A DNA stretch of 64,000 nt from Salinirubrum litoreum (GTDB taxonomy: Archaea > Halobacteriota > Halobacteria > Halobacteriales > Haloferacaceae): positions 62,001-126,000 of the forward strand of contig NZ_JAJCVJ010000003.1 of NCBI RefSeq assembly GCF_020567425.1, read 5' to 3'. Shown one piece after another: positions 17,604-48,274 of this stretch. A program made the translations under genes and the position numbers. The stretch's first letter is position 1; each line of letters begins with the position of its first letter. The notes beneath the pieces are model-generated. The model saw only the letters and a list, made by a program, of their open reading frames with translations, made no database searches and was not told the DNA's origin.

Positions 17604-18119
17604 GGTCCAGTGACCTGTTCGAGAGACTGTGGCTTGTAGCTTCACCCGGGTCGGCGTCGGCTGCGCAGGTCGGCCGTCTTCGGTACGCTCCACAGAGGGA
17701 GCGACCGCTCGGTTCACCGGAGTCGCCGGACCACCTGACGCAATAGAACGACAACCGTGACATGAGAATAGACAAACGTAGAAAGATAAGCTGTCTTTAG
17801 CGTCAGTCTGTTCACTGTGCTATTTATCAACGTATTTCATCTATTTCCAGTATATCGTCTTACATTCGTAGAACTCGCCGAAAGTTCGTGTGTATATTCG
17901 CAAAAAACTGTTCAGACATCAGTATAGTTTATTTCTATTCGAGAATATGAACCTGATTTTCGAACGTCCCAACCGACATAGTCCCACAACGTCAACTGCC
18001 CTGTGATCCAAATCGAGAGTCGGACGAGAGTCTGGCGGACGACAGATTGCGTCGTCAGTCCCCCCGTAGGACGGCAAACGGTAAAGGGGTGGGGGACGGA
18101 CGAAAGCGCAGAGACCGGC
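17604..18119. other. 516-base intergenic region with an AT-rich core
   Basis: I see no gene here. The core 17761-17940 has 64 G/C in 180 bases (about 36 percent), far below the neighbouring genes. It contains several TATA-like stretches (CTATTTATC, AGTATAGTTTATT). It separates the divergent PEP-hydrolase-like gene and the first rdfA gene, so it may hold both promoters, a protein-binding region, or the scar of a lost element. Confidence 0.6.
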
Positions 18120-18779
18120 ATGGGAGAGGACTACTGCTGTAAGGTCGACCGGGTCGTCGACGAGTACGACCTCCGGGCGCCGCGCCAGTTCGACGGCGAC
18201 CACGACGAGTATCTCGTGGCCAAGTGGACCGGGACGGGGCGGCAGGAACCGACCGGCGTCCGGCCGCTCACGGCCTGGTTGAACAAACAGATCCTGCGGA
18301 CGGTCTACCGAAGACACGACCGCTCGGACACGGACGTCCGCATCGACGCCGAGTACGAGGCGGTCGTCGGCGACGACGTGGCCGCCCACGAACGGGCAGC
18401 CGTCGTCGCCGACCTGGAGGCGGACGGCATCGACCCCGAGGTGCTCGCGAGCGACTGCATCGGCAAGAGTACGCTCGACCGACATCTAAAGACCTGTCTG
18501 GAAGCCAGCAAAGCCGCCACGAGCGGCGCCACCGACGGGCGGTGGGAAGACGACGCGGTCGCGTACGCCCGTTCGTCGTTCCAAGACCGCGTCGAGACCG
18601 CACTGGCGTCGTTGGACGACGACGACCGACTCCCGGGTGCGGCCGACGCAGAACTGACGACGCCGATTCTGCTCGGGTGTCCACAGTGTGCGACGCGGGT
18701 CAAACTCGACACCGCCCTCGACCGGGGGTACGTCTGTGCCGACCACCTCGGGGCGAGTCCCGACCAGTCGGGAGAGTGA
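18120..18779 (+). CDS. rdfA: RdfA-family protein, copy 1
   Basis: A 219-residue protein of the haloarchaeal rod-determining-factor RdfA family, named from Haloferax volcanii work on rod versus disk cell shape. The opening CKVDRVVDEYDL is shared with copy 2 (SKVGRVIAEYDL at 34349). So are a W-x-G-x-GR motif, an RPLTAWLNKQIL helix, EYEAVVGDD and a THL-like DRHLKTCL stretch. The C-terminus has a zinc-ribbon-like CPQC...CADH. No catalytic motif is visible. It is followed 170 bases later by an ASRP gene on the same strand, the same order as in the second module. Confidence 0.78.
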   Translation: MGEDYCCKVDRVVDEYDLRAPRQFDGDHDEYLVAKWTGTGRQEPTGVRPLTAWLNKQILRTVYRRHDRSDTDVRIDAEYEAVVGDDVAAHERAAVVADLEADGIDPEVLASDCIGKSTLDRHLKTCLEASKAATSGATDGRWEDDAVAYARSSFQDRVETALASLDDDDRLPGAADAELTTPILLGCPQCATRVKLDTALDRGYVCADHLGASPDQSGE

Positions 18780-18920: not shown

Positions 18921-18949
18921 CGCCGTACTCCGTGGCTGTCGACACGCAC

Positions 18950-20776
18950 ATGTGGCACCTCGACATCCGGAACGTCGCCGGGATTCGGGCCGGAACGACC
19001 GAACTCCACCCCGGGACGAACGCCGTGCAGGCCGGCAACTGGCAGGGCAAGACCTCGCTGGTGACGGCTCTCAGGACCGTGCTGGGCGGGGAGGTCACGC
19101 CGAATGTCCTGACCGACGGCGAGACGCAGGGCCACGTGAGACTCACGACCGACGGGGGCGAGACGTACGAGGTGGACCTGCGTGCGACCGACGACGGCGT
19201 CGCCCGGGGCGGCGAGACGTACCTCACCGAGCGGCCGAACCGGATCTGTGCTGAACTGTTCGCCTTCTTCGACGAACACAATGAGATCCGTCGGGCAGTC
19301 AGAGCGGGCGAGGACCTCACACCGCTGCTGACGCGGCCCCTCGACGCCGAAGACCTGGACGCACAGGTCGCGGAACTGAGAGCCGAGCGCCGCCGTGCGG
19401 AGAGCGAACTGGACCGCGTGACCGAAGCGACCGCGGAACTCCGAAAGGAACGGTCACGCGCCGAGCGACTGGAGCGGGAGTTGTCGGGAAAGCGGGCCGA
19501 ACTGGCCGATCTGGACGACGAAGGAGGAGAAACTAGCGACCCGGACGCACGCGAGGCACTCGAGGAAGCGCGGACCTCCTCCGAACGCACACAGCAACGG
19601 ATCGACCGACAGGAACGACAGGTCGAGTCCATCGAATCGGAACTGGCCGAGAAACGCGCCGAGGTGGCGGAGATCGAGGTCGACGAGGAACCGGACCTTC
19701 GGGAGCGACTCGCGGCAAAGCGCGACCGCCTCTCGACGCTCGAACGAGAGACCGACACGCTTCAGACCCTGTACAACGCGAACAGACAGGTTCTCGACCG
19801 TGACCAACTGGACCTCGTCTCAGAGATCGACCGGCAGGTGACCGGTGACGTGGTGAGTTGCTGGGTCTGTGACACCGAGACCACCCGCGAAGCGGTCGAA
19901 TCACGGCTCGCCGATCTCGCCGAGGTCGTCGCCGACCGGCGTGAGCGAGCAACCGAACTCCGCGAGGAGACGGAAGCCCTCGAAGCGCGCCGCGATAGAA
20001 TCGAGGAACGACGTGACCGCCGTGCCGAACTGGAGCGTCAGATCTCGACGCTGCAGTCCCGACTGGACGAACGTCAGGCGGATCTCGCGGCGAGTCGCGA
20101 GCGACGCGAAGAACTCGAAGCCGATATCGAGGCCCTCGAAGCGGCCGTCGAGACGACCGACGAGCGTCGCCAGACGCTGGAGGCGGACGTCGTTCGACTC
20201 GAGACGAAACTGGAGACCGTCAACGACCGGATCGCAGAGTTAGAGCGACAGGCGGACGAGCGAACGGCCATCGAAGCGCGGATCGACCGACTCGGCACCG
20301 AGATCGAATCGCTCCGCTCGCGGCGTGAACGAACCATCGAAGCCGCACGGAGTGCGTTCGACACGGCACTCGAGGACGTCGTAGACGCCTTCGAGCCGAG
20401 TTTCGAGACCGCACGGCTGGACCGACACACCGACCCCGACACGGGGCGGACCGAGAAACTGGAACTGGTCGTCGCGCGGGACGGCCGCGAGATCTCCGTG
20501 GAACGGCTCTCGGAGGGAGAGGTCGAACTACTCGGGTTCATCGCCGCACTCGCCGGTTACGAGGCGTTCGACGTGGCCGAGCAGGTCCCGTGTCTACTGC
20601 TCGACGAACTCGGCGGCCTCGACAGCGACCACGTCCACACGCTCGTCGAGTATCTGACTGACCGGACCGAGTTCCTTGTGACGACTGCTTACCCCGAGGC
20701 TGGCGTGTTCGACGGCCACACTGTCTCCCCGGACGAGTGGGCAGTCGTCTCGGATACCGAGGAGACGGTCGCCTGA
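18950..20776 (+). CDS. Archaea-specific SMC-related protein (ASRP), copy 1
   Basis: A 608-residue SMC/Rad50-like protein. The N-terminal head half has a P-loop-like GNWQGKTS (29-36). Two Arg/Glu-rich coiled-coil arms follow, joined by a CWVC zinc-hook motif at 304-307, almost exactly mid-protein. The C-terminal head half has an LSEGE signature (520-524) and Walker B CLLLDELGGLD with D552 and E553. Lys34 and Glu553 suggest a working ATPase, although the P-loop lacks the usual first glycines. Arms are far shorter than in true SMC. It lies directly after rdfA copy 1, so a joint role on DNA or chromosome-linked cell shape is inferred. Confidence 0.82.
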   Translation: MWHLDIRNVAGIRAGTTELHPGTNAVQAGNWQGKTSLVTALRTVLGGEVTPNVLTDGETQGHVRLTTDGGETYEVDLRATDDGVARGGETYLTERPNRICAELFAFFDEHNEIRRAVRAGEDLTPLLTRPLDAEDLDAQVAELRAERRRAESELDRVTEATAELRKERSRAERLERELSGKRAELADLDDEGGETSDPDAREALEEARTSSERTQQRIDRQERQVESIESELAEKRAEVAEIEVDEEPDLRERLAAKRDRLSTLERETDTLQTLYNANRQVLDRDQLDLVSEIDRQVTGDVVSCWVCDTETTREAVESRLADLAEVVADRRERATELREETEALEARRDRIEERRDRRAELERQISTLQSRLDERQADLAASRERREELEADIEALEAAVETTDERRQTLEADVVRLETKLETVNDRIAELERQADERTAIEARIDRLGTEIESLRSRRERTIEAARSAFDTALEDVVDAFEPSFETARLDRHTDPDTGRTEKLELVVARDGREISVERLSEGEVELLGFIAALAGYEAFDVAEQVPCLLLDELGGLDSDHVHTLVEYLTDRTEFLVTTAYPEAGVFDGHTVSPDEWAVVSDTEETVA

Positions 20777-30140: not shown

Positions 30141-31047
30141 ATGGCTGAGAGTCTCGGCCTGAAAGAAGGTGTCTCGATGGCACTCGGCGGGATGATCGGG
30201 GGCGGCATCTACGCCGTTCTCGGTGTCGTGGCGGGCATCACCAGTTCCGCCATCTGGCTGGCGTTTCTCATCTCCGGTGCCTCGCCACGTGCGCGGGCTA
30301 CTCGTACAACGTGCTCAACAGTCTCACGATCAGGAGAGCATCGCCGACCCGGTGGAGACGATCAGGAAGGCGGTCTGCGTCTCGATCCCCGTCGCGGTCG
30401 CCATCTACGTTCTCGTGGGGGTGGTGACGGTGAACCTCGTTACCCAGACGCTGGAGTCGTACCCCCACGTCGCACTGAAGGACGCCGCCTCGACGATGAT
30501 GCAACCGTACGGACTGGCGGGGGTCGGTGGCGTCGTACTCGCGCTCTCGGCGCTGTTCTCGACGGGCAGTGTCATCAACGCGACGCTGTTCTCGTCAACC
30601 CACTTCGCGAAGGGGATGCTCAGCAACGACCTGCTCCCCGACCAGATCGGTGACGCGGCCGCAGAGGGACTTCCCGAACGAACGGTGCTGGTCCTCGGGG
30701 CGATCACCGCAGCCTTCACGTGGTACGGAAGTCTCGGGGCGATCACCTCATTCGCCTCGCTGGCGTTTATCCTAGTGTTCGGCGCGATGAGCTACCTCGC
30801 GTGGCGCCAGCGTGTTACCGACGAAGTGAACGCCGCTGTTCCCGCAGTCGGAACGCTCGGCGCACTGGTGTTCTTCTCGCTGATGCTGTACAACCTCTAC
30901 GTCCGGGAGCGCTACACGTTCTACATGGTGCTCGGCATCGCCACCGTCGTGTTCGCCGTCGAACTCCTCTACTTCGAGCGGGAACGCATCGAACAGGAGG
31001 TCACGCAGTTCGACCCCGACGTAGAGAGCTTCACCGAGGACAGCTGA
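30141..31047 (+). pseudogene. Broken APC-family amino-acid permease
   Basis: Parts of one APC transporter appear in three frames. Residues 1-47 (LGLKEGVSMALGGMIGGGIY, helices 1-2) are in the frame of the ATG at 30141. CAGYSYNVLN, the next expected block, is in another frame at 30290-30319. From about 30331 a third frame gives the family's later part (ESIADPVETIRKAV onward), with helices 8-12 intact to the stop at 31047. The region for roughly helices 3-7, some 170 residues, is missing. So there are at least two disruptions, one with a large deletion. No functional transporter is expected, although the C-terminal half remains open from 30223. Confidence 0.85.
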
Positions 31048-31642: not shown

Positions 31643-33592
31643 TTAGATCGACTCGACGCGGTGGTACGAGTCGTCGAGTGCCGCGGCGTCTTCGGGGAGG
31701 AGCGCCACGACGAGGTGGGGGGCGAACTCCGAGAAGTAGTCGACGAGCGCGGCGATGCGTCCGGCGTCGATCGCCTCCAGGGAGTCCAGCAGCATGAACG
31801 GCACCTCCTCGTGGACCTCGTGGACCCGGTAGCCCGCGAGCGCGAACACCAGTCCAGTTACTTCCCGTTCGCTCTCGCTGAGGTGGTCGATGGTGTCCTC
31901 GTACGCCGTGCCGTCCTCGCTCTGGCGAATCACGTGCAGGTCGAAGACGCGCTTGATTGCCTTTCGGCGACCCTCCTTCACTTCGGTCTGTCGCCGCTCG
32001 ATCCAGATTCGCTGGAGGTTCTCGTACTCGAGGAGACCGAGGATGGCGTCCATGTGCTCGTTGAACTGCTCGACGGCGTGTGCCTCTATCTGTTCGACCT
32101 TCGTCCTGCGGTCGGCCAGTTGCTCCGTGATCTCCGCTCTCCGTGCGTCGAGATCCTCACGCTCGGCGAGTTCGGCTTCCACCTCCGTGATGCGCTTTTC
32201 GACTTCCGCGAGGTCGTCCGTCAGTTGCTGAATCTCGAATTCGAGTCGGTTCGCCTCCTTGTGGAGGGCGAGGACCTCGCTGTAGTCCTGCTCGGGGATC
32301 TCGTCGACCGCCGCTTCGAGTCTCTCGACCGTGTCACTCAGTTCTGCTCGCCGGTCTCTGAGCGACGCCAACTGCGCCTCACGCTCGTCGATCTCCGCGA
32401 CGAGTTGGTCGTGGCGGCGCTCCAGTTCCCGTCGCCGCTTGCGTTGTTCGGTGAGTCGGTCCCGCTCCATCTGGCGGTCCCGAAGCCGGTCCGTCACGTC
32501 CCCCCGTTCGTCGAGCAGTTCACGCCGGAGCGTCCGGAGTCTCTCTACCGTCTCCTCGATGGCAGTCCGCTCGACGGTCGTCCCACACGTCCAGCAGACC
32601 AGGGCGTCGGTCCCGACGAGTCGGTCGGTCACGGCACCCTCGGTGTCCGTCTCGCGGTCCAGGGAGTCGTCCAGCAGGTCGGAGTCGCCGTCCAGCATCT
32701 CCTCGTTGAAGCTCACGATACTCTGGAGTTCGGTGACCGTCGCGTCGAGTCGTTGTTGCCGGCTCCGCAGGTCGTCGATCTCCGTCTCGACCGCCGTGAC
32801 GTCTGCCGCGTCGGCGGTCGTCAGGTCCGGGTCGCTCCCCTCGAGTTCGTCGAGTTCGGTCCGTAAGGCTTCGAGGCTCTCCTCCTGTGATCCGATCCGG
32901 AACCGGACAGACTCCAGGTCCGACCGGGCCTCCGTGAGGTCGTCGAGTCGGTCGTCGAGCGTCGCCTGCTTCGAGCGACTCTCCTCGACGCCGGTGTTCG
33001 CCGCCTCGATCTCTCGCTCCTTCGCGTCGAGCGCCTCGCGTCGGTCCACGATCTCCGATTCGAGCGTGGACCGGCGGTTCTCGAGGGTCGGGAGGTCCCG
33101 CTTCAGGTCGTCGAGTTCTTCGAGACGGGCCTCCACGTCACGCTTGTCCGACTGGAGCGTCGCGATCTCGGCACGGATCGCCTCGGTGTCGACCGGTCGC
33201 ATGAGGACCGCCCTGAGGTCCTCGTCACGGACGACGGCCTGTCGTGCCTCGTTCGTCTCCAGGAGGAACGCGAACAGGTCGGCGAGTTCGGGGTCTGCGA
33301 GGTAGCCGTCACCGCTCGTGACGACGCTGCCGTTCTCGCGGCGGAGCCGTCTCGTGTAGGTCTCGCCGGCTACCGACAGCGACACCTCTCCGTCCGCCGC
33401 GTCGGCCTTGAGCGAGACCCCGTCGCTGCCGAGCGCACCCATGATCGCCCGAAGGAACGACGTCCGATTCGTCGCGTTTCGACCGGTCAGCACGTTCACC
33501 CCCGGCGTCAGTGAGACCGACGTCTCTTCGATACCACCGATGTTCCGCGCCGTGAGTCGAACGTGTCCGTCGCTGAGTTCGGGACCGGTCAT
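31643..33592 (-). CDS. Archaea-specific SMC-related protein (ASRP), copy 2, altered ATPase motifs
   Basis: A 649-residue SMC/Rad50-like protein with the same plan as the one at 18950: head half, coiled-coil arm, CWTC zinc-hook motif at 333-336, second arm, head half. The P-loop position reads GRNATNRTS (37-45), with Arg43 where the catalytic Lys should be. The signature is LSESE, and the Walker B region reads FMLLDSLEAID with D603 followed by Ser604, not Glu. It may therefore bind nucleotide poorly or not hydrolyse it. A TATA-like stretch lies about 25-30 bases upstream, so it can be expressed apart from rdfA copy 2. Confidence 0.82.
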   Translation of the reverse strand: MTGPELSDGHVRLTARNIGGIEETSVSLTPGVNVLTGRNATNRTSFLRAIMGALGSDGVSLKADAADGEVSLSVAGETYTRRLRRENGSVVTSGDGYLADPELADLFAFLLETNEARQAVVRDEDLRAVLMRPVDTEAIRAEIATLQSDKRDVEARLEELDDLKRDLPTLENRRSTLESEIVDRREALDAKEREIEAANTGVEESRSKQATLDDRLDDLTEARSDLESVRFRIGSQEESLEALRTELDELEGSDPDLTTADAADVTAVETEIDDLRSRQQRLDATVTELQSIVSFNEEMLDGDSDLLDDSLDRETDTEGAVTDRLVGTDALVCWTCGTTVERTAIEETVERLRTLRRELLDERGDVTDRLRDRQMERDRLTEQRKRRRELERRHDQLVAEIDEREAQLASLRDRRAELSDTVERLEAAVDEIPEQDYSEVLALHKEANRLEFEIQQLTDDLAEVEKRITEVEAELAEREDLDARRAEITEQLADRRTKVEQIEAHAVEQFNEHMDAILGLLEYENLQRIWIERRQTEVKEGRRKAIKRVFDLHVIRQSEDGTAYEDTIDHLSESEREVTGLVFALAGYRVHEVHEEVPFMLLDSLEAIDAGRIAALVDYFSEFAPHLVVALLPEDAAALDDSYHRVESI

Positions 33593-33722: not shown

Positions 33723-34349
33723 CTAGCAGTCGCACCCGCCTCTGTCGATCAGTTCTTCGACCTGATACTGGCTCTCACAGTCCCGACAGACGACCTGCAC
33801 GTCCACGAGTGCGTCGACGGAGCCGACGGAGAGTGCGCCGCGGTCGGCGAGTCGCTCCACGACGTTCGTCGTCACCGCCTCCGTCCGGCCACGGAGTTTC
33901 CCGATCGTCTCCCGTGCTTTCTCCGGGTCCGCCTCGGGGGTTCCGCGTTCGACTCCCCGGTACTTCCGGAGGAACGTGTGGACTGCCTGGTGGGTGACGA
34001 AGTCGGCCTCCACGGTGTCGAGGTCGACGCCCTCCCACTCCAGCCGGTTCCGCAGTTCGACTCGGGCACCGCTACTCGTCTCGTCGTCCGTCAGCGTCGT
34101 GTACGCGCTCTCTACTTCGACCGGAACCGGGTCCATGCCGGCGTCTCGCATCGCCGCCTCGAGGGCGCGTCGGTTGAACTCGTCGGCGAGATCACGGAGA
34201 CTCCGGCGCTCTCGTCCGTCACCGACCCAGGCCGCTTCGAGCCACTCGGCGGTCCCCGAGAGGTCGTACTCCGCGATGACCCTGCCGACCTTGCTGTCGG
34301 TGTCCGGCCGGCCGTGTCCGGGTCCCGTCTCGTCTCCTGACTCGCTCAT
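33723..34349 (-). CDS. rdfA: RdfA-family protein, copy 2
   Basis: A 208-residue member of the RdfA family. Shared landmarks with copy 1 are KVGRVIAEYDL, W-x-GDGRERRSLRDLADEFN, VESAYTTLTDDETS and DFVTHQAVHTFL, followed by a C-terminal zinc-ribbon-like CRDC...CDC. The start MSESGDETGPG was chosen because the variable N-terminus then has the length of other members; nine more codons are open upstream. It follows the IclR regulator by 43 bases and precedes ASRP copy 2 on the same strand. Its distance from copy 1 in sequence suggests an old duplication or separate acquisition, not a recent one. Confidence 0.78.
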   Translation of the reverse strand: MSESGDETGPGHGRPDTDSKVGRVIAEYDLSGTAEWLEAAWVGDGRERRSLRDLADEFNRRALEAAMRDAGMDPVPVEVESAYTTLTDDETSSGARVELRNRLEWEGVDLDTVEADFVTHQAVHTFLRKYRGVERGTPEADPEKARETIGKLRGRTEAVTTNVVERLADRGALSVGSVDALVDVQVVCRDCESQYQVEELIDRGGCDC

Positions 34350-34392
34350 ACCTCGACAGTCGGGGACCGACGGCAAAAGGCTACTCGTCGAC

Positions 34393-46255: not shown

Positions 46256-48274
46256 TCAGCGTGCGTCTGCGAGGCGGTCCAGCGCCTCGGGGTTCTCGAT
46301 ACTGCTCAGATCGCCGAGTTCCTCGCCCGTGTAGGTGGCCTGCACGGCACGCCGGACGACCTTCCCGGACTGCGTCTTCGGGAACTCGTCAACGAACAGC
46401 ACCTCGCGGGGCCGGAACGGTTTGCCGAGTTGGTCGCCGATCATCGCGCGGATCGCCGCCCGCAGGTCGTCCGACTCGGTGACACCCGCTTCGGTGACGA
46501 CGTAGGTGACGACGGCGGTGCCGGTCGTGTCGTCCGGGACGCCGACGGCGGCGACCTGGTTGACCTCTGTGTGTTCCATCGCGGCACCTTCGACTTCGGC
46601 GGGGCCGACCTTCCGACCGGCGACGTTCAGCGCGTCGTCGGCCCGCCCGTGGAGGAACCACAGGCCGTCTTCGTCTTTCTGGGCCCAGTCGCCGTGGTCC
46701 CACAACGGCGGGTCCGCGAAGGTCGACCAATACTCCTCGAGGTAACGCTCGTCGCCGTCCCACAGCGATTTCGTCATCGAGGGACAGGAGTCGCGGGCGA
46801 CGAGGAAGCCGCGTTCGTGACTGTCGGCGACCGACTCGCCCGCCGAGTTCACGATGTCGACGTCCATCCCGAGACCGGGACCGCCGAGCGAACAGGGCTT
46901 GAGTGACTGGTTCGGCATCGGCATCAGGAAACAGCCGCAGATCTCCGTGCCGCCCGAGATGTTGATGATCGGCGTGTCCCCGCCGCCGACGTGCTCGTAG
47001 AACCACAGCCACGACTCCGCGTCCCAGGGTTCGCCGGTCGACCCGAGCAGGCGGAGCGAGGAGAGGTCGTGGCCGTCCAGCCACTCGTCGCCCTGCTTTC
47101 GCAGGGCGCGGATCGCCGTCGGCGAGATGCCGAACTGTGTCAGCGAGTGGCGATCGATCATCGCCCAGAAGCGGTCGGGGTCGGGGTAGTCCGGCGCGCC
47201 CTCGTAGACGAACACGGTCCCGCCGAAAGCGTGGTTCCCGATCAGCGTCCACGGCCCCATCATCCAGCCGATGTCGCTCATCCAGAAGAACCGGTCGCCG
47301 GGCTGTTGATCGAAGCCGAAGTGGATCTCTTTGGCCGGTTGCAACAGCCCGCCCGCGTGGGTGTGGACGATCCCCTTCGGTTTGCCGGTGGTGCCCGACG
47401 AGTAGAGCAACATCGACTCCTGATCCGAGGGGAGCGACTTGGTCTCGAACGTGGCCGACTGAGGCTCGACGGCCGCGTCCCAGAACTGATCCCTGCCTTC
47501 GGTCATCGGCACGTCGACCACGGTGTCGGTGTCCGCGAACCGTTCGTAGACGATGGTGTGGGCCACGTGGTGGTCGGCCTGTTCGATCGCCTCGTCTGCG
47601 GCACCTTTCAGCGTCACCTCGCTCCCGCGCCGGTAGAAGCCGTCTGCGGTGAACAGCACGTCACAGGCGGGGTCCTCCAGCCGGGTCGCGGTCGCGTCCA
47701 CGCCGAAGCCGGAGAAGATGGGGACCGCGACGGCACCGATCTTGAAACAGCCGTAGAGGATGCTCACGACCTCGGGCACCATCGGCATGTAGAGCCCGAC
47801 GCGGTCGCCCGTCTCGACGTCTCGCTCCGCGAGGGCGTTGGCGACCTTGTTCGCCTGCCGGTGGAGTTCGTGGTACGTGACCTCCCGCACCTCCCCGTCC
47901 TCGCCCTCCCAGATGGTGGCGACCGTGTTCCGCGTCTCGCTGTCGACGGCCGCGTGCCGGTCGACCGTGTTGTACGCGATGTTCAACTCGCCGCCGGGAT
48001 ACCAGTCGGTGAACTGCGGCCCGTCGGTGTCGTCGCGGACCGAGTCGTAGTCCTCGAAGAAGTCGACACCGAGGTAGTCGACGAGTTCGTCCCAGAACCA
48101 GTCGACGCCGGACTCCGGCTCTCCGTCGAGGTCCGTGGTCGTCCGCTCGATGACGGCCTCGCGGTCCTCGATACCGTACGTCTGCATGAACTGCCAGACG
48201 TTGGTAGATTCGACGAACTCCTGACTGGGCTCGTGGACGATCCGCTCACTATCCGGTGTGGGATCGGCTGACAT
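46256..48274 (-). CDS. Acyl-CoA synthetase, Acs-like AMP-binding family
   Basis: A 672-residue ANL-superfamily ligase that activates acetate or another short acid to its CoA ester through an acyl-AMP. The P-loop is LLYSSGTTGKPKGIVHTHAG, followed by INISGGTEICG, the hinge region DGLWFLHGRADDALNVAGRK and the catalytic Lys in KTQSGKVVRR. Length and the N-terminal linker domain match acetyl-CoA synthetases. It converges with the USP operon. A perfect 17-bp palindrome (48285-48301) lies just upstream of the start, implying repression or activation at this promoter. Confidence 0.92.
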   Translation of the reverse strand: MSADPTPDSERIVHEPSQEFVESTNVWQFMQTYGIEDREAVIERTTTDLDGEPESGVDWFWDELVDYLGVDFFEDYDSVRDDTDGPQFTDWYPGGELNIAYNTVDRHAAVDSETRNTVATIWEGEDGEVREVTYHELHRQANKVANALAERDVETGDRVGLYMPMVPEVVSILYGCFKIGAVAVPIFSGFGVDATATRLEDPACDVLFTADGFYRRGSEVTLKGAADEAIEQADHHVAHTIVYERFADTDTVVDVPMTEGRDQFWDAAVEPQSATFETKSLPSDQESMLLYSSGTTGKPKGIVHTHAGGLLQPAKEIHFGFDQQPGDRFFWMSDIGWMMGPWTLIGNHAFGGTVFVYEGAPDYPDPDRFWAMIDRHSLTQFGISPTAIRALRKQGDEWLDGHDLSSLRLLGSTGEPWDAESWLWFYEHVGGGDTPIINISGGTEICGCFLMPMPNQSLKPCSLGGPGLGMDVDIVNSAGESVADSHERGFLVARDSCPSMTKSLWDGDERYLEEYWSTFADPPLWDHGDWAQKDEDGLWFLHGRADDALNVAGRKVGPAEVEGAAMEHTEVNQVAAVGVPDDTTGTAVVTYVVTEAGVTESDDLRAAIRAMIGDQLGKPFRPREVLFVDEFPKTQSGKVVRRAVQATYTGEELGDLSSIENPEALDRLADAR

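Follow-up and report, generated by a model that had tools for sequence, protein, structure and literature searches.

Heads of the SMC superfamily are generally seen as motors or switches that work by hydrolysing ATP. What, then, is to be made of a haloarchaeal member of this superfamily whose ATP site lacks the canonical Lys and Glu? An open reading frame on the minus strand (31643-33592) of the Salinirubrum litoreum DNA analysed here (64,000 nucleotides, hereafter the window) encodes such a protein, ASRP copy 2, an SMC/Rad50-like coiled-coil protein of 649 amino acids with a Rad50/SMC-like head, a coiled coil and a zinc hook. Its Walker A motif, GRNATNRTS (33458-33484, minus strand), aligns with GMNGSGKTT of Rad50 and departs from the canonical pattern GxxxxGK[ST] (GRNATNRT), with Asn in place of Gly at position 6 and Arg43 in place of Lys. 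The Walker B and D-loop stretch, LLDSLEAID (31766-31792, minus strand), contains Ser604 where the catalytic Glu would follow the Asp (LLDS), and a conserved Glu606. The ABC signature LSESE (31868-31882, minus strand) has Ser at its fourth position, as do non-haloarchaeal ASRPs, and the zinc hook CWTCG (32582-32596, minus strand) was assigned by motif and alignment. An earlier note on this DNA had given the motifs of both ASRP copies and the numbering of Arg43 and Ser604 exactly as found here, and its claim that copy 2 is devoid of the canonical ATPase Lys and Glu is borne out by these motifs.

The window also encodes ASRP copy 1 (18932-20776, plus strand), a member of the Sph1-type clade with 614 amino acids when read from GTG and 608 when read from ATG, the start behind the numbering Lys34 and Glu553. 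Copy 1 keeps the Walker A Lys (GNWQGKTS, 19034-19057) and contains the signature LSEGE (20507-20521) and a Walker B motif with the rare Glu (LLDELGGLD, 20597-20623; all on the plus strand). Another frame considered as copy 1 (46256-48274) was rejected, as it encodes an AMP-ligase-like enzyme. ASRP membership was defined by an NCBIfam NF045487 score of >300 bits, which both copy 2 (665 bits) and copy 1 (459 bits) exceed, and both contain a zinc-hook CxxC between two coiled-coil arms (CWTCG and CWVC, respectively). The window additionally contains the remains of an APC-type amino-acid transporter (30141-31047), with apparent N-terminal and C-terminal parts in different frames; the C-terminal part corresponds to model positions 218-414 of 429 and the middle is missing, and the gene looks like a deleted or frameshifted pseudogene.

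The genome encodes five ASRPs, four of which carry the Arg/Ser form. Copy 2 and its paralogues L002, L003 and L004 all share G[RE]NATNRTS, LSESE and LLDSLEA and are 48-51% identical to copy 2, and copy 1 stands alone at about 30-34% identity. A halophile bias in composition from Lys to Arg was considered and rejected, since the Rad50 (GLNGSGKS, LSGGE, LDEPT) and SMC (GPNGSGKS, SGGE, LDEVD) of the same genome and the ABC ATPases matched in the window keep GKS and DE; a general shift of this kind cannot explain the ASRP motifs. All five ASRP genes are located on two smaller contigs, C3 (596 kb) and C4 (179 kb), and ASRPs were also identified on 136 plasmid records, which together point to an association of ASRPs with secondary replicons. 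No ASRP was found in the viral contigs and phage records searched, and a viral origin was dropped.

ASRPs were collected from 145 class-wide, 148 phylum-wide and 148 family-wide genomes (overlapping samples), 80 named contigs and the Halobacterium plasmid pNRC200, and 263 distinct sequences were aligned, of which 255 are haloarchaeal. Arg occurs together with Ser in 190 of these 255, in a sample that is partly biased: the 80 named loci were found via patterns including NATNRTS, and matches in the first genome search were ranked from the best score down. A smaller set of 164, compiled without the named loci, had Asn-Arg and Asp-Ser in 106 sequences. The others combine a Walker A Lys with Gly (35), Arg (8), Ala (7), Ser (6), Gln (3), Asn (2), Asp (2) or Glu (2) at the Walker B position. 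The Walker A Lys is hence absent from 190 and the Walker B Glu from 253 of the 255 haloarchaeal proteins, copy 1 and L043 being the only bearers of Glu. With three more ASRPs of the genome and 190 of 255 haloarchaeal homologues alike, the differences of copy 2 are real, and chance or sequencing error is excluded as their cause. The residue counts indicate that the altered ATP site is a strictly conserved, normal form of the family and not a one-off defect. The proposal of a degenerate copy 2 partnered with an intact copy 1 is accordingly not upheld, as Arg/Ser is the majority state (four of five in the genome, 190 of 255 in the census) and Lys with Glu is found in two of 255. The view of LSESE as a deviant signature is reversed, as LSxSE is present in all 201 proteins of the second clade and in most outgroups, and LSEGE is confined to the Sph1-type clade (54 of 54). 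The earlier note had also named an outcome that would overturn its reading, namely that Arg/Ser is simply the working motif of the family; of this, the near universality of Arg/Ser stands, and only that half.

In trees from which the motif columns were excluded, copy 1 and copy 2 fell into separate clades, a point on which the earlier note is supported. Copy 1 groups in the Sph1-type clade with Halobacterium Sph1 (L065, identical to L175 over the compared region), and copy 2 in the second, Sph2/3/4-type clade with Halobacterium Sph2 (L176). The clades received SH-aLRT values of 94, with a small NK/DS group included, and 99, the latter for the Sph2/3/4-type clade; in the careful tree, the NK/DS rows were set as outgroup, and their position there is not informative. 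This small third group of haloarchaeal ASRPs (L101-L104) contains NK[ST]S and LDSLG[AV]FD and lacks an equivalent of Glu606. Among the non-haloarchaeal ASRPs, all of which sit on long branches, L083, L084 and L087 have Lys and Glu, which suggests that Glu was lost in haloarchaea, and L085 and L086 (Asn) and L174 (Asp) suggest that the Walker B Glu position is labile beyond haloarchaea as well. The tree is most simply explained if Glu disappeared early, at or around the root of the haloarchaeal radiation, and Lys gave way afterwards within the second clade. L043, whose Glu codon is GAA, sits deep within a group of Gly-bearing relatives (L039, for instance, has GGA) and looks like a single-base return to Glu. 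The nearest relatives of copy 1, L266 and L267 (52% identical), have Asp at this position, so that the small copy 1 branch has either kept or regained an acidic residue. L262 of Halorarius litoreus is a fragment of an ASRP gene that contains an in-frame TAG, apparently a decaying copy beside intact paralogues.

Conservation within the second clade was assessed in 129 non-redundant proteins. The position of Arg43 is occupied by Arg in 121 and Lys in 8, and that of Ser604 by Ser in 124 and Ala in 5; the Walker B Asp is invariant (129 of 129), and the signature Ser and Glu606 are each present in 126. All six Arg codons and all six Ser codons are used across the set, meaning that the identity of the amino acids was kept through saturated silent change. 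Furthermore, the two positions are coupled: Arg is only found with Ser (190 of 190), and Lys with Ala (7) or Ser (4; 6 in the 255-sequence census), the Lys and Ala pair occurring at two separate places in the tree. Such coupling points to joint action of the two residues; a Fisher test of it, which takes no account of relatedness, was given no weight. The pattern of conservation indicates that the Arg/Ser replacements are fixed and under purifying selection in the main haloarchaeal ASRP clade. The Sph1-type clade keeps the Walker A Lys, and its Glu position is mostly Gly but also R, N, Q, S or D; with seven residue types, it is more variable than 71% of head positions. Judged by this variability, constraint at the Glu position is relaxed in the Sph1-type clade, whereas the second clade has become locked into its replacement residues.

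Copy 2 was modelled with AlphaFold2 (mean pLDDT 88.8; about 95 for the head), and the model keeps the order of an ABC-ATPase head, its P-loop and Walker B strand both being predicted at high confidence. The P-loop lies between a strand (31-35) and a helix (40-53), the signature precedes a helix (573-590), the Walker B strand spans 599-603, and long helices (136-300 and 342-521) flank the zinc hook. The best match among solved structures is ATP-gamma-S-bound Rad50 (7zr1, E 1e-17). Model and fold match thus agree on an ABC-type head fold with a signature helix. Copy 2 resembles Rad50 in this ABC head with a zinc hook; it differs in that the Rad50 of the genome keeps GSGKS, LSGGE and LDEPT, and in its neighbour gene, rdfA.

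Every one of the genome's five ASRP genes lies next to an rdfA of its own, in line with the RdfA-Sph gene pair of haloarchaea as presented in the main text of PMC10869688. The rdfA of copy 2 (33723-34376, minus strand; Pfam PF21811, 243 bits; AlphaFold2 mean pLDDT 96) and that of copy 1 (18003-18779, plus strand; PF21811, 117 bits) are located directly upstream of their ASRP genes on the same strand. A sixth rdfA (G000:C3:381636-382211) has no adjoining ASRP. Across haloarchaea, rdfA was identified in the fetched flank of 223 of 255 loci (53 of 54 Sph1-type, 170 of 201 others). RdfA and ASRP distances are strongly correlated (Mantel r 0.88 for 144 pairs, 0.75 within the second clade and 0.91 within the Sph1 type, where permutations reached at most 0.13, 0.31 and 0.35, respectively), which supports stable pairing and not contact, as the shared inheritance of neighbours can give such values. 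AlphaFold2 predicts with confidence that RdfA is helical and has one end resembling a zinc ribbon; a kleisin-like role was considered, and no relative among solved structures was found by fold (best E 0.36) or by sequence. A distant RdfA-like gene (L083:3364-4122, E 2.5e-8) lies beside a non-haloarchaeal Lys/Glu ASRP, and the pairing of RdfA with ASRP may therefore predate both the Glu loss and haloarchaea.

Copy 2 is thus best described as an ordinary main-clade ASRP in which the Walker A Lys is replaced by Arg, with Asn for Gly before it, and the Walker B Glu by Ser. The RAD51 variant K133R binds ATP and is defective in hydrolysis (PMC3155514), and the degenerate site of CFTR has Ser in place of the Walker B Glu (PMC7756269); by analogy with these two cases, we infer that Arg/Ser ASRPs bind ATP with little or no hydrolysis. 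Mg-ATP would still be bound by the residues retained in the site (Asn and Thr of Walker A, Asp of Walker B, Ser of the signature and Asp of the D-loop) and by the substituted Arg; the head could form an ATP-sandwich dimer, and hydrolysis would be very slow or nil. The closed head together with the zinc hook would then constitute a long-lived clamp or scaffold, whose opening and closing might be controlled by the cognate RdfA or by nucleotide level in place of a hydrolysis motor. On balance we favour this reading, with moderate confidence, in which copy 2 has a zinc hook and a Rad50-like head able to bind ATP but showing poor or no hydrolysis, and serves with RdfA as a nucleotide-gated clamp or scaffold. 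Of the options raised in the earlier note, a nucleotide-binding or structural form thereby remains the best reading of a protein without the canonical pair. By extension, nearly all haloarchaeal ASRPs, which serve in cell shape and DNA maintenance, probably bind ATP without the usual cutting.

Two other readings place the function of the altered site elsewhere. ATP could still be hydrolysed by relocated catalysis, with Glu606 of LEAID as a displaced catalytic base, or with RdfA supplying a residue to the ATP site, and with Arg43 replacing Lys. The near invariance of Glu606 in the second clade (126 of 129), set against the Gly found at the equivalent position in most Sph1-type proteins, is consistent with such a role, as are the strict conservation and coupling of Arg43 and Ser604. 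However, the model places Glu606 in the D-loop stretch rather than where the Walker B strand ends, and the NK/DS group does without it. We know of no precedent for relocated catalysis in SMC or Rad50 heads and regard it as unlikely. Alternatively, the P-loop Arg and Asn might abolish nucleotide binding and leave a purely structural head, the residues being kept because they help the protein to fold or the heads to touch. The site has indeed lost the P-loop Gly along with the two canonical catalytic residues, and the main text of PMC10869688 proposes that Sph proteins act in the manner of a cytoskeleton. Yet the Thr/Ser and Asp that coordinate Mg, like the signature Ser, are among the most conserved residues of the head, which would be unexpected if no nucleotide were bound, and a nucleotide-free head is in our judgement improbable.

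The proposal that copy 2 (Arg/Ser) and copy 1 (Lys/Glu) form an asymmetric heterodimer, with one competent and one degenerate site, draws on the presence of both copies in the window, 11 kb apart, and on the degenerate/competent pairing known in ABC exporters (PMC7756269). Among 145 genomes, 123 encode an ASRP over the cut-off and 30 a Sph1-type protein; both types are present in 28, the Sph1 type only in 2, and other types only in about 93, with eight candidates scored per genome, by which a few copies may be missed, and motifs read on a sample of matches. Although 28 of the 30 genomes with a Sph1-type protein also hold an ASRP of the copy 2 score class, Arg/Ser forms occur without such a partner in about 93 of 145, which makes an obligate heterodimer unlikely. 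Moreover, most Sph1-type proteins lack Glu, so that pairing would not restore a complete site, each copy has a separate, co-diverging RdfA, and copy 2 is much closer to the other three paralogues than to copy 1 (only about 30% identical). By clade and gene neighbourhood, copy 1 is a paralogue in its own right, of the Sph1 type and paired with a different RdfA, and not the missing half of copy 2, and we consider the heterodimer very unlikely. A decaying pseudo-enzyme or sequencing artefact, which the motif changes taken alone could suggest, is refuted by the conservation data and has a negligible probability: the frame is intact, Halorarius litoreus encodes an intact homologue with 65% identity, and Arg/Ser is strictly kept family-wide through codon saturation and always paired, which argues against decay.

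The ASRP family comprises Sph of haloarchaea and coalescin of Sulfolobus (PMC9389158, NF045487), which the proteins described here resemble in score and in their layout of head, coiled coil and zinc hook. The two haloarchaeal subclades described in the main text of PMC9389158 (Sph1 type and the rest) are matched here; that text treats Walker A and B as present, in contrast to the loss of Glu and Lys in the census above. The replaced residues are not discussed in the main text of PMC9389158 or PMC10869688, and a family-wide loss of Lys and Glu was not reported in the main articles of the open-access literature searched. A further likeness is to the degenerate site of ABC exporters and CFTR NBD1, in which the Walker B Glu is likewise changed to Ser with the Asp kept; such sites are described as binding ATP with poor or no hydrolysis (PMC7756269). 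In ABC exporters, however, one of two sites is degenerate, whereas in a homodimer of second-clade ASRPs both would be, with the Lys changed too.

In Haloferax volcanii, deletion of each of four Sph proteins lowers survival in a gene-conversion assay, and sph2 and sph4 cannot be deleted together (PMC11276520); sph3 and rdfA are required for rods, according to the main text of PMC10869688. Three ASRPs were found in Haloferax denitrificans, used as a proxy for the Sph proteins of H. volcanii, two with Arg/Ser and one of the Sph1 type with Lys/Arg. Taken with the H. volcanii phenotypes, these motif states suggest that Sph proteins are probably important without the canonical catalytic pair. We tentatively propose that the haloarchaeal Sph/ASRP radiation may be a large SMC branch that gave up the canonical hydrolytic cycle as a family, in which the main clade, with its coupled Arg/Ser site, might act as an RdfA-controlled, ATP-bound or nucleotide-sensing clamp in cell shape and genome-copy equalisation. 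The finding turns the question of what Sph and RdfA do in cell shape and gene conversion into a simple two-residue test. If the proposal is true, ATP binding alone, or a different chemistry, would be enough for a whole duplicated and phenotypically important group of SMC proteins.
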